DNA of 63,568 nucleotides from Miniimonas arenae (lineage in GTDB: Bacteria; Actinomycetota; Actinomycetes; Actinomycetales; Beutenbergiaceae). Position 1 is the first letter of the stretch. Each line of letters begins with the position of its first letter. The stretch lies in contig NZ_VENP01000013.1 of NCBI RefSeq assembly GCF_006351005.1, forward strand, positions 1 through 63,568, written 5' to 3'. Positions 14,601-33,673 of this stretch are shown piece by piece. The notes under the pieces were generated by a model. That model was given only the letters and a program-made list of their open reading frames with translations, searched no databases and was not told where the DNA came from. The position numbers and the translations under genes are program-made.

Positions 14601-15539
14601 ATGTCAGCGCAGCACGGCACCAAGGCGATCCTCGCGGCGCTCGCCGCCAATCTCGGCATCGCCGTCACCAAGTTCGTCGCGTACGTGCTGACCGGCTCCT
14701 CCTCGATGCTCGCGGAGGCCGTGCACTCGGTCGCCGACTCGGGCAACCAGCTCCTCCTGCTCCTGGGCGGACGCCGTGCGGTGCGCGCGGCCGACGCCGA
14801 GCACCCGTTCGGCTACGGCCGCGCCCGGTACTTCTACGCGTTCGTCGTGTCGATCGTGCTCTTCACGCTTGGTGGCGTGTTCGCCCTCTACGAGGCGTAC
14901 GAGAAGTTCCGCCACCCCCACCCGATCGAGGGGCAGTGGTGGTGGGTGCCGCTCGTCGTGCTGGCCGCCGCGATCGGGATGGAGGGCTTCTCGTTCCGCA
15001 CCGCCATCCACGAGTCGCGGCCGCACAAGGGCTCCGGGTCGTGGTGGCAGTTCATCCGGCGCTCGAAGTCGCCCGAGCTGCCCGTCATTCTGCTCGAGGA
15101 CTTCGGCGCCCTGATCGGGCTCGCGTTCGCGCTCGTCGGGGTCTCTGCCACGCTCCTCACGCACGACGGGCGCTGGGACGCCCTCGGCTCGGCCGCCATC
15201 GGCGCGCTGCTCGTCTGCATCGCGTTCGTGCTGGCCCGGGAGACCAAGTCGTTGCTGCTCGGCGAGGGCGCCGAGCCCGACGTCGTGGACGCGGTCCTCG
15301 CCGCCGCAGCCGGCGACGGCGTGACCTCCGTCATCCACCTCAAGACCCTTCACCTCGGGCCCGAGGAGCTGCTCGTCGCGGCGAAGATCGAGGTCCCGAG
15401 CGCGTCGACCGCCGCGGACGTGGCGGCGGCGATCGACTCGGCCGAGGGTCGGATCCGCGCCGCGGTGCCGATCGCCCGCGTGATCTACCTCGAGCCGGAC
15501 CTGCGCCGCGCCGTGAGTCAGGACACCGCGACCGACTGA
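14601..15539 (+). CDS. cation diffusion facilitator (CDF) family transporter
   Basis: 312 residues from ATG 14601, with GAGAGG about five bases upstream. Six membrane helices are expected. The metal-site motif HSVADSGNQ in helix 2 (about residues 42-50) and an LLEDFGALIG block in helix 5 carry the conserved His/Asp positions. The C-terminal cytoplasmic domain (about 215-312) has the ferredoxin-like CDF fold, with VIHLKTLHLGPEELLVAAKIEV. CDF proteins export Zn2+, Fe2+, Mn2+ or Co2+ using the proton gradient; the metal cannot be assigned here. It occupies the position where manA lies in related genomes. Confidence 0.92.
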   Translation: MSAQHGTKAILAALAANLGIAVTKFVAYVLTGSSSMLAEAVHSVADSGNQLLLLLGGRRAVRAADAEHPFGYGRARYFYAFVVSIVLFTLGGVFALYEAYEKFRHPHPIEGQWWWVPLVVLAAAIGMEGFSFRTAIHESRPHKGSGSWWQFIRRSKSPELPVILLEDFGALIGLAFALVGVSATLLTHDGRWDALGSAAIGALLVCIAFVLARETKSLLLGEGAEPDVVDAVLAAAAGDGVTSVIHLKTLHLGPEELLVAAKIEVPSASTAADVAAAIDSAEGRIRAAVPIARVIYLEPDLRRAVSQDTATD

Positions 15540-15579
15540 GTCGCGCCCCCTCGAGTGCCGCAGCGTCGCATCCGCCGTC

Positions 15580-15758
15580 GAGAACGGCCCATGGCGACGA
15601 GAACGGCCCTCTGAGCACGTTCGCGAGGGCACCCGGGCGTGCGCGTGTCGTTGAGAACGGCCCGTGGCGTCGAGAACGGCCCTCTGAGCACGTTCGCGAG
15701 GGCACCCGGGCGTGCGCGTGTCGTTGAGAACGGCCCGTGGAGTCGAGAACGGCCCTGG
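15580..15758 (+). repeat. 73-bp tandem repeats (two full, one partial copy)
   Basis: Units start at 15580, 15653 and 15726, an exact 73-base period. Each begins with an arm of the palindromic element (GAGAACGGCCC, eight bases, then CGAGAACGGCC); the rest of the unit (CTCTGAGCACGTTCGCGAGG onward) is identical in the two full copies. The third copy stops after the arm. Confidence 0.9.
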
Positions 15759-15785: not shown

Positions 15786-15852
15786 CGAGAACGGCCTGTG
15801 GCGACGAGAACGGTCCGCTGCGGGCCGGTCTCGTCGCCACGGGCCGTTCTGG
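15786..15852 (+). repeat. 67-bp palindromic element, copy 1
   Basis: Two 28-base arms (15786-15813 and 15825-15852) match at 25 of 28 positions as an inverted repeat around an 11-base loop. The core is ACGGCC(C/T)GTGGCGACGAG. A second copy with the same arm and loop lengths lies at 27299-27365. Confidence 0.9.
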
Positions 15853-15936
15853 GCGGTGCGGCAAGCTCCGGGCTACCCGCGCGGCGGGCGGCCGCGCGGT
15901 CGAGGGGGCTTCTCCGGCCGACGGAAGGTCCGGCGG

Positions 15937-16063
15937 CGCGCACCGACCGCGACACCGACCGCAATACCGTCGGCGCGCGCCGACTGCGACACCGACCGCA
16001 ATACCGTCGGCGCGCACCGACTGCGACACCGACCGCAATACCGACGCCGCGCACCGACTGCGG
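15937..16063 (+). repeat. 37-bp tandem array, three full units and one partial
   Basis: Units begin at 15937, 15974, 16011 and 16048; the shared core is ACACCGACCGCAATACCG. They are nearly identical, with no unique spacers between them, so this is not CRISPR. The array ends about 30 bases before the ahcY start. Confidence 0.9.
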
Positions 16064-16092: not shown

Positions 16093-17754
<1,662 letters not shown>

Positions 17755-26533: not shown

Positions 26534-26569
26534 GGCGCCGCGGTCGACCGCCCGCCGCCACGTTGGTCC

Positions 26570-26599
26570 GGGGCCGGCACCCGCACGGGTGCCGGCCCC
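26570..26599 (+). terminator. hairpin terminator after hpf
   Basis: Perfect 13-bp stem (26570-26582 with 26587-26599) and 4-base loop, 36 bases after the hpf stop. No U-tract. Confidence 0.75.
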
Positions 26600-26709
26600 G
26601 CCGCGTGCCGGGTCGCTGGCCCTCCGGTGCGTCTCGGGGCGCTCCCGCCGCTGCAGGCAGGACCGCTGACCGCCTGGCGCCTGCCGGCGGCGGTGTCGGT
26701 GGTGGGTGG

Positions 26710-26715
26710 CACGAT
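26710..26715 (+). promoter_or_regulatory. -10 hexamer CACGAT, leaderless spacing
   Basis: Six bases before ATG 26722 of the truncated ycaQ-like gene, so the broken gene may still be transcribed. Confidence 0.5.
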
Positions 26716-27240
26716 GCCCGCATGACCGCCGCCGGCCCGCCCGTCATGTCCCTGCCGCAGGCGCGCCGGGTCGCGGTCGCAGCGCAGCAGCTCACCGGCC
26801 GTCGGCACGCGCGGGTGACCCGCGCGAACCTCGCCCGGATGACCGAGCACGTTGGGGTGCTCCAGATCGACTCGGTGTCCGTGCTCGCGCGCGCCCACCT
26901 CCTGCCCGTCCTCGCGCGGCTGGGCCCCTACGACCTCGCGGTCCTGGACCGCGCGACCGCGCGCGCCCCGCGGCTGCTCGTCGAGGAGATCGCGCACGAG
27001 GCGGCCTACGTGCCGCCCGAGGTGTACGCGCTCCTCGCGCACCGGCGCGCCGCCCGGCGGGAGGGCTCGTGGGCGCTCTCGTTCGGGGCGGAGCGGGCGG
27101 ACCTCCTGACGAGGATCCAGGCCGTGATCGGCGAGCGCGGCGCCCTCACGAGCCGCGAGGTCGAGCGCGTGCTCGAGAGCCCGGGCGGCCGCGCGGGCTG
27201 GTGGGAGTGGAGCGAGGTGAAGACCGCGCTGGAGCTGCTC

Positions 27241-27298
27241 GGCCGCCGCAGCCGCGGCCGCCTGAGGGCCCGACGCGCCGCACGCCGTCGTGCCCGAC
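27241..27298 (+). repeat. 58-bp direct repeat, left copy
   Basis: 53 of 58 bases are identical to 27368-27425. It begins GGCCGCCGCAGCCGCGG and lies immediately left of the palindromic element. Confidence 0.85.
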
Positions 27299-27365
27299 CC
27301 AGAACGGCCCGTGGCGACGAGCACGGCCCGCTGGGGACCGTTCTCGTCGCCACGGGCCGTTCTGG
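27299..27365 (+). repeat. 67-bp palindromic element, copy 2
   Basis: 28-base arms 27299-27326 and 27338-27365 match at 27 of 28 positions as an inverted repeat, with an 11-base loop. Arms begin CCAGAACGGCCCGTGGCGAC. Same architecture as 15786-15852, more than 11 kb away. Confidence 0.92.
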
Positions 27366-27367
27366 CC

Positions 27368-27425
27368 GGCCGCCGCAGCCGCGGCTGCCTGAGTGCCCGA
27401 CGCGAGGCAGGCCGTCGTGCCCGAC
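27368..27425 (+). repeat. 58-bp direct repeat, right copy
   Basis: Right-hand partner of 27241-27298; five mismatches. Far longer than a normal target-site duplication. Confidence 0.85.
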
Positions 27426-27491
27426 GGCGACGCCGCGCGGGTCGTGACCATCGTCCTGCCGCACACCGACCGGAGGTGGAATGCTGGCGCG

Positions 27492-32512: not shown

Positions 32513-33673
32513 TCACTCCTCGGGGTGAGCGGGTTCCCGGAGCAGCTGCCCCGGGAAGATCAGGTCGGGGTCGTCGCCGACCACCTCGCGGTTGAGCTGC
32601 CACCACTCGCGCCACGCCGCGTCGGCCTCGGCGGCGCTCGCCGCGCCGTGCGTGACGGCGATCGACCAGAGGCTGTCGCCGGACTGGACCTCGTACCGGA
32701 TCTCCGGCGTGGGGTCGACGGAGTCGGCGGTGGGCGGGGCTGATGGGACGGCGGTGGGTGCGCTGGTGGGCGCTGAGGCGAGCACTGAGGTGGGTGTGGG
32801 GGAGACGGCGGGCGGCGCCATCGGGACGACGGCCCGCGCTGAGTCTGCCGCGAGGCTCGCGGGCATGGCGGCGGGCGCCTTGGGTCGCTTGGTGACGGCG
32901 GGACCGGTGGTCGACGTGGACGTCGGCGCCGCGACCGGCGTCGGCAACGCCGAGGCGATCGCCGACGGCTCCGTCGCGGCCGTCGTGGGCGACCCGGTGG
33001 TCGGTGCCTCGCTGGTGGGCGACCCGGTGGTCGGCGCCTCGCTGGTGGGAGACTCGCTGGTGGGCGCCTCGCTGGTGGGCGTCGTGCCGGACCCCGCGGG
33101 AGGGGCGGTCGCGGCCGGCGCCGCGGAGGACGGCGCCGGGTCGGTGGCCGAGCCGGGGGGACCGGCGGACGCCGACGCGACGCTGGTCGGTCCGTGCGAG
33201 GGTGCCGCCGGTGCGCCGTATCCGAGGTCGGCGGGCAACGGGCCGGCCACCGCCGTCGCGGCGAGGGCCATCGCGGCGCCGCCCGCGCTCGCCCCGAGCA
33301 CGATCCGCCGCACGAGGCGCGGAGCGAGCGCGAGGGCACGACCGCCTGCACGAGCGCCTGCACGAGCGTCGGGACGAGCGCCTGGCCGCGAGTCGGCACG
33401 GAAGGCCGGGGGGTTCTGGCGGCGGCCCGACAGCGCCAGCACCGCCGCAGCCACGAGCGCCGTGAGGGCGTACCAGGCGGCCGCGAGCGCGCCCGCGCCG
33501 CACACGACCCGGGTGACGAGGTCGGACAGTCGGACCGGCTCGAGCCCCGGCTGGCCGGCGACCGCCGTCAGCAGCACCGCGAGCACGCCGGTGCCCAGCC
33601 CGAGGGCGACCAGGCGCGCCACGGCCGTGCGGCGCGGGTTGCGGCGCGGTGTGTGGCGGTGGGAGAGCTCCAT
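32513..33673 (-). CDS. LysM-domain membrane protein
   Basis: 386 residues; GAGGAC precedes the ATG at 33673. Hydrophobic helices lie at about 17-37 and 56-80, and a third near 123-145. A long Ala/Pro/Thr/Ser region contains near-repeats of SEAPTTGSPT between about 200 and 240. The C-terminal LysM domain (about 330-386) reads RYEVQSGDSLWSIA through IFPGQLL and should bind peptidoglycan. It is operonic with the Rv3235-family gene. Role unknown; it resembles XhlA/LysM anchors found near secA in actinobacteria. Confidence 0.88.
   Translation of the reverse strand: MELSHRHTPRRNPRRTAVARLVALGLGTGVLAVLLTAVAGQPGLEPVRLSDLVTRVVCGAGALAAAWYALTALVAAAVLALSGRRQNPPAFRADSRPGARPDARAGARAGGRALALAPRLVRRIVLGASAGGAAMALAATAVAGPLPADLGYGAPAAPSHGPTSVASASAGPPGSATDPAPSSAAPAATAPPAGSGTTPTSEAPTSESPTSEAPTTGSPTSEAPTTGSPTTAATEPSAIASALPTPVAAPTSTSTTGPAVTKRPKAPAAMPASLAADSARAVVPMAPPAVSPTPTSVLASAPTSAPTAVPSAPPTADSVDPTPEIRYEVQSGDSLWSIAVTHGAASAAEADAAWREWWQLNREVVGDDPDLIFPGQLLREPAHPEE

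Follow-up and report, generated by a model that had tools for sequence, protein, structure and literature searches.

Taken together, our results identify the 67-nt palindromic element of Miniimonas arenae at positions 15786-15852 of the window (the whole stretch of 63,568 nucleotides analysed here, from contig NZ_VENP01000013.1 of assembly GCF_006351005.1) as a REP-like member of a repeat family that is scattered over the genome and that we name AGAACGG after its box. In our view the element is probably solo and non-autonomous, belonging to a class of REP-like palindromes that have a DUF559 nuclease as their partner. The choice of DUF559 as the partner acting in trans is based on the twin-box repeats that bracket DUF559 genes in related genomes and on the TTGACTGGTC palindromes that bracket such a gene in the element's own genome; that the element moves, including in trans, is what we infer.

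The window contains two full four-box palindromes, neither assigned to a strand: copy 1 at 15786-15852, with 85.5 bits in covariance model R1, and copy 2 at 27299-27365, with 89.5 bits. As the sequence-only reading had it, each is 67 nt long with 28-nt arms, which pair at 25 positions in copy 1 and 27 in copy 2. Every arm carries two direct boxes of about AGAACGG[C/T]CC (CSAGAACGGYCC; CSAGAACGG[C/T]CC with the flank), which lie 19 nt apart with a stretch that varies and a conserved GCG in between, and the whole element has four boxes in the order box-box-centre-box'-box'. The direct boxes of copy 1 begin at 15786 and 15805 and its inverted boxes lie in the right half; the 11-nt centres of copies 1 and 2 are TCCGCTGCGGG and CCCGCTGGGGA. 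Both palindromes exceed chance: the best inverted repeat with 28-nt arms reaches 27 pairs in the window (at 27299) and 24 in 20 shuffled versions of it that keep two-base blocks, and the folding z-scores, from -8.2 to -10.9 on both strands of both copies, indicate that a stable hairpin can form on either strand.

Upstream of copy 1, the left arms earlier described as single were recovered at 15581, 15654 and 15727; because each arm carries two boxes, these are twin-box half-elements. All three are on the + strand: that at 15579-15609, with both direct boxes, belongs to the first unit of a 73-nt tandem repeat (15576-15648), that at 15652-15682 to the second unit (15649-15721), and the third, at 15725-15755, is degenerate. 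To the left, a cation efflux family gene (14601-15539, + strand; PF01545, 5.7e-42) ends 42 nt ahead of the first arm, and to the right of copy 1 lies an S-adenosylhomocysteine hydrolase gene (16093-17754, + strand; PF05221, 3.6e-130). The window also has a tandem repeat of 37 nt closely following copy 1 (family D6, 15918-16062) and 15-nt periodic repeats that are perhaps coding (family D7, 32972-33081).

Copy 2 is enclosed by a direct duplication. A 59-nt sequence abuts it on the left (27240-27298, + strand) and is duplicated at 27367-27425 (+ strand), one base to the right of the palindrome, with a local alignment score of 93, compared with a 95th percentile of 26 and a maximum of 81 in 500 random placements. 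This duplication could be an insertion scar; among the 19 of 22 AGAACGG copies entered in the duplication test, copy 2 is the only one with a duplication abutting both sides. The open frame at 26563-27447 (+ strand), which has no Pfam match and which we take to read like a YcaQ-type protein, seems to be deprived of its C-terminal part at about 27240, the point at which duplication and palindrome begin.

The family extends far beyond the window. Allowing up to three mismatches, the arm occurs 61 times in the genome, compared with 0 for the reversed pattern, and R1 finds at least 21 full palindromes of 55 bits or more at 15 loci of the 3.4-Mb genome, besides weaker partial ones, a count that is a lower bound with 150 of 12,764 first-look candidates scored. 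Together these numbers exclude that the two copies of the window are the only ones and bear out the dispersed family that had been proposed from them. In an alignment of 22 genome copies, conservation reaches at least 90% in most box columns, whereas the spacer columns 14-16 pair in only 12, 10 and 6 of the copies, and we therefore conclude that conservation falls on the boxes to a greater extent than on the hairpin itself. As placed by a crude gene caller, the 13 clusters that have sequence to either side comprise seven between convergent genes, four between genes on the same strand (one of them copy 2, where the end of a called frame overlaps the palindrome), one between divergent genes and one inside an open frame, while four further clusters at contig ends each adjoin the 3' end of a gene; by these calls the family is mostly intergenic, with most copies at the 3' ends of genes or in gaps between convergent ones. 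Half-elements have expanded locally at several loci, and contigs C67, C107, C114 and C142 start or end in half-element arrays as if the assembly had broken there.

A partner of the classical kind was not found. The TnpA-REP (Y1 HUH) transposase that the sequence-only reading expected elsewhere in the genome did not turn up in the 99.7% complete assembly, in which PF01797 has 0 matches at E <= 0.001; as a control, the same search was applied to 14 named genomes and gave matches in 5 of them. No parental transposase emerged from the PF01797 search and the gene calls made at the loci, plasmid and phage records contain no matching element at E <= 1e-5, and Rfam at its gathering score reports tRNAs and nothing else for the window and for 11 of the loci. 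The GTAG tetranucleotide end is absent from the 22-copy alignment, in which the ends are of the CSAGAACGG...CCGTTCTSG type, and no T-run was seen by eye after the stems. The assignment to a REP/MITE-type family accordingly stands in part: the palindromes are dispersed, mostly intergenic and REP-like, but the enzyme that was to go with them was not found in the genome.

The box itself appears to be local to this genome, which is the sole member of its genus in our comparison set. At up to two mismatches the arm is found in none of the 23 other genomes of the taxonomic family, and an arm search over 396 genomes of the order returned seven others with one or two matches each, several of them by eye within coding sequence. 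The four-box architecture, by contrast, is found again in other genera, built from different boxes (for example, CGAGAnCGnnCC), among them CGAGATCGGACC in genome G012, CGAGAACGACCC in G171, CGAGACCGATCC in G006, CGAGAGCGACCC in G004 and CGAGACCGGTC in G041, with more in further genomes. A pattern for the architecture gave 54 matches in 24 of the 396 genomes and its reversed control 7 matches in 6 genomes, some of the forward matches being, by eye, coding or simple tandem sequence. Box spacing is near-constant within a genome and ranges from 19 to 22 nt over the DUF559-associated palindromes. R1 matched at least 16 other genomes of the order, a lower bound set by stricter filters and by the 12 candidates scored per genome; six of these (G006, G008, G012, G041, G171 and G256) show the twin-box architecture by eye, and the other ten looked like single-stem hairpins or coding sequence. 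The core palindrome CGAGAACGG-N-CCGTTCTCG, tried as a marker of the family, proved too common across GTDB genomes to be informative; at least 118 GTDB stretches, from a scan that may omit the window's own records, included no twin-box element, with a best arm score of 14 of 17 positions among the matches listed.

The link to DUF559 comes from these other genomes. One arm match (L053) adjoins an apparent DUF559 gene, and for this reason DUF559 (PF04480) was searched for in 26 genomes. Many DUF559 genes turned out to have gene-specific repeats on both sides, often as inverted box pairs. In runs with the first 42 and then 85 genes, and finally with genes drawn from the 127 unique DUF559-type ones in the fetched loci, we compared the two flanks of a gene. 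A word of at least 15 nt is shared between the upstream and downstream flanks of 19 of the first 42 genes, compared with 18 of 2000 random windows, and in 80 of the 116 genes with both flanks of at least 200 nt the flank alignment scores beyond the 99th percentile set by mismatched flanks (by construction, so do 14 of 1392 mismatched controls), leaving 36 of the 116 without matched flanks at this threshold. In the window genome, flank scores are 41-122 in 6 of 6 DUF559 genes and exceed 38 in 0 of 82 ordinary genes. Inverted repeats are also enriched: among 115 genes, 50 upstream and 53 downstream flanks score beyond the 95th percentile obtained with 284 control windows. A search with the family profile found DUF559-type genes in all 13 genomes examined, with 6-17 matches each, fragments included; these genomes had been picked for carrying such palindromes. 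On the coding strand upstream of 48 of the 121 genes of at least 180 aa, there is also a GTCCACAG motif (8 in the reverse orientation), which occurs downstream of none and of which examples lie at about 1820-1830 in L341 and about 809 in L054. We take this motif to be DnaA-box-like.

Over all 3160 pairs, the similarity of the repeats does not correlate with that of the proteins (Spearman -0.006); a Mantel test for co-divergence is positive (r 0.146, with 0 of 2000 permutations), a result that comes from the closest pairs. Of the 33 pairs with a relative protein similarity of 0.4-0.6, about 1 (3%) has common repeats. With flanks that are alike at a single gene, yet so seldom shared between related genes, the two flanks of one gene seem to change together, as would be expected under gene conversion or if the specificity of recognition shifts.

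Boxes paired like those of the window element occur in one part of the DUF559 family. Six genes, L341 (G171), L316 (G041), L367 (G006), L385 (G004), L388 (G008) and L395 (G007), have twin-box flanks of the CGAGAnCG or TGAGATCG type; by eye, the palindromes to either side of five of them are full, if partly degenerate, while a pair of direct boxes precedes L316 and three inverted ones follow it. In a tree of 119 proteins of at least 200 aa, all six fall in one clade of 24 rows (SH-aLRT 96), in whose other 18 rows paired boxes of this type were not seen; the clade also includes the decayed gene L370 (G012), which has a single GTCCGATCTCG box on each side, and it includes no DUF559 gene of the window genome. 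Among 13 genomes, the scattered palindromes of the gene's own genome are the best match to the flanks for four of the six twin-box genes and rank second for L388 and tenth for L395, in a comparison of small sets of 1-5 arms per genome. L341 and L316 do not match the Pfam DUF559 model and were assigned to the family through profiles built from its other members.

The window genome itself provides a case of gene and scattered repeat together. The Pfam DUF559 model finds one gene there and family profile A2 seven matches, six of them good and one, on contig C46, weak and not recovered by HMM. On contig C108, four-box TTGACTGGTC palindromes, with mismatches in some boxes, lie on either side of the DUF559 gene. 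The 10-mer TTGACTGGTC is found at 41 places in the genome, six of them at this gene, compared with 0 for the reverse control, and 16 of 17 other TTGACTGGTC loci, inspected with the places on C109, C116 and C138 left out, are four-box palindromes with at most two mismatches per box. These palindromes have a box spacing of 21 nt and a longer centre, and duplications abut both sides in 0 of 16 copies. None of the seven A2 matches in the 99.7% complete draft is a DUF559-type gene with AGAACGG flanks. The AGAACGG element has the box-N-box-centre-box'-N-box' architecture of the DUF559-associated palindrome class as we define it here, and the genome holds one family, TTGACTGGTC, together with its cognate same-box enzyme gene and another, AGAACGG, with none found in the assembly. 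The centres of the TTGACTGGTC palindromes (L401-L428) often contain GCAGGTCA or its complement TGACCTGC, and similar centre words are seen beside the DUF559 genes L322, L324 and L329, which carry other boxes. Two further DUF559 genes, L321 (C82) and L323 (C60), are bracketed by tandem arrays of the CGTGTGACGCTC and TTTCGCGAGAGGAAGTCC types in place of single palindromes.

The candidate partner consists of a Vsr-like domain joined to an AbiEi-like N-terminal part, the latter indicated by weak Pfam matches. Profile A2 matches PDB chain 3hrl (1.8e-9) and, weakly, PDB 3r3p, annotated 'Mobile intron protein' (0.015), which we take to be I-Bth0305I. Residues E180, D207 and D233 are invariant in A2 (19 aligned proteins), and E, D and ExDG are visible by eye in L341 and L316; by analogy, these acidic residues are predicted to be catalytic. 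NCBIfam gave no match to four DUF559-type proteins, and a phmmer search of PDB with L341 alone returned nothing meaningful.

In our model, the DUF559 protein would recognise the paired boxes and would nick or cut the palindrome, or the hairpin that may form when the palindrome is single-stranded. Repair, or copying from another palindrome, would then convert existing copies and spread new ones, and such conversion would preserve the likeness between the flanks of a given gene even as related loci drift apart. In this model the AGAACGG repeats would represent an orphan population, the cognate nuclease gene having been lost or being absent from the assembly.

Several of these observations can be read without copying by a nuclease. 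The palindromes might be binding sites of DUF559-type proteins, such as operators, decoys or nucleoid sites, with their boxes at a fixed helical spacing, that were dispersed by site selection and ordinary duplication. Conserved boxes around a variable and seldom pairing spacer, the near-constant spacing of the boxes within a genome, the weakly indicated AbiEi-like part and the restriction of GTCCACAG to the upstream side of DUF559 genes all fit such a role; however, the solo copies are mostly found at 3' ends and in convergent gaps, as called by the crude gene caller, and not at promoters, their local tandem expansion and their similarity over the whole element resemble copies by descent, and repeats occur on both sides of DUF559 genes, so that we consider pure binding sites unlikely. 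Still other functions could be exerted at the RNA level, with the palindromes acting as bidirectional terminators or 3' RNA hairpins that were multiplied by chance recombination and whose association with DUF559 is incidental. To this possibility we give little credence: while a hairpin that is stable on both strands, the location of 7 of the 13 two-sided clusters between convergent genes by the same crude calls and the single-stem, terminator-like GAACGGCC hairpins among the matches in other genomes speak for it, the stems lack a T-run by eye, the boxes are genome-specific and copy-like, and DUF559 genes have matched flanks far more often than do the ordinary genes of the window genome.

Movement by an unsampled HUH enzyme or an ordinary insertion-sequence transposase, as in a classical REP or MITE, would account for the REP-like size, palindromy and location of the element and for the 59-nt direct duplication flanking one copy. 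It is nevertheless a most improbable explanation given a genome with no Y1_Tnp match, mobile-element records (plasmid and phage, E <= 1e-5) with no matching element, and abutting duplications in 1 of 19 AGAACGG and 0 of 16 TTGACTGGTC copies. We retain the DUF559-associated palindrome as the preferred reading.

How does such an element compare with known systems? MITEs are short, non-coding and dispersed and have inverted ends, features that the present elements share, but we find here neither a consistent target duplication nor, by PF01797 and the gene calls at the loci, a parental transposase. The EDxHD homing endonucleases resemble the DUF559 system in the weak match of the nuclease domain (E 0.015) and in having the gene beside a possible site; they differ in that no intron or intein was seen here and that full palindromes flank several genes with no split site. 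The closest likeness is to REP/REPIN/BIME-RAYT systems ('REPtrons'), with their short, dispersed, extragenic and genome-specific palindromes, their arrays and their enzyme gene accompanied by cognate repeats. RAYT genes are reported to be always flanked by two inverted REPs with which they co-evolve, and REPs usually to number '>100 copies/genome' (Nunvar et al. 2010, PMC2817692). In the TTGACTGGTC and twin-box families, DUF559 takes the place of RAYT as the enzyme flanked on both sides, which was not seen for AGAACGG; the partner is a DUF559/Vsr-like nuclease in place of an HUH enzyme, the Y1_Tnp search having given no match, the architecture has four boxes, and at least 21 full copies stand against the more than 100 given in PMC2817692. 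A GTAG at one end is described as a REP feature in PMC3733652, whereas the AGAACGG alignment has no GTAG end tag; with both the HUH and the GTAG features lacking, we do not file the element as REP/RAYT. PMC3733652 also describes CGTC-tagged REPs for which no dedicated transposase was found, and these are similar to the AGAACGG family as REP-like repeats and differ from it in their CGTC end tag. On the protein side, Caulobacter VsrA has a DUF559 domain of the PD-(D/E)XK superfamily and a proposed DNA-cutting role, and is linked to cytosine methylation and mismatch repair in the available part of PMC12907096, which mentions no flanking palindromes; the DUF559 genes described here share the domain and superfamily and differ in often having such repeats. 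Among the open-licence papers listed, judged by titles and the openings of abstracts, none joined DUF559 or AbiEi-type genes with flanking palindromes, at least under these protein names.

There is about as much to be said for as against the broader idea that these genes make up a second, independently evolved REP-like system, in which DUF559 lineages of high-GC actinobacterium-like bacteria would each be bracketed by, and propagate, their own fast-changing palindrome by nuclease action and repair, with no HUH transposase, and in which solo copies would sometimes outlive their enzyme. If true, short palindromes would be spread by at least two unrelated types of enzyme. The model would give a role to a 'protein of unknown function', present in several copies in the 13 searched genomes, and an origin to palindromic repeat families without RAYT, such as those left without an explanation in PMC3733652, and it predicts that each DUF559 protein recognises the boxes flanking its own gene. 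Finally, we note that a separate DUF559 clade (L365, L381 and L383) is accompanied by palindromes of about 56 nt with one CGAGAACG-type box per arm, making it a candidate alternative cognate lineage for the box of the window element.
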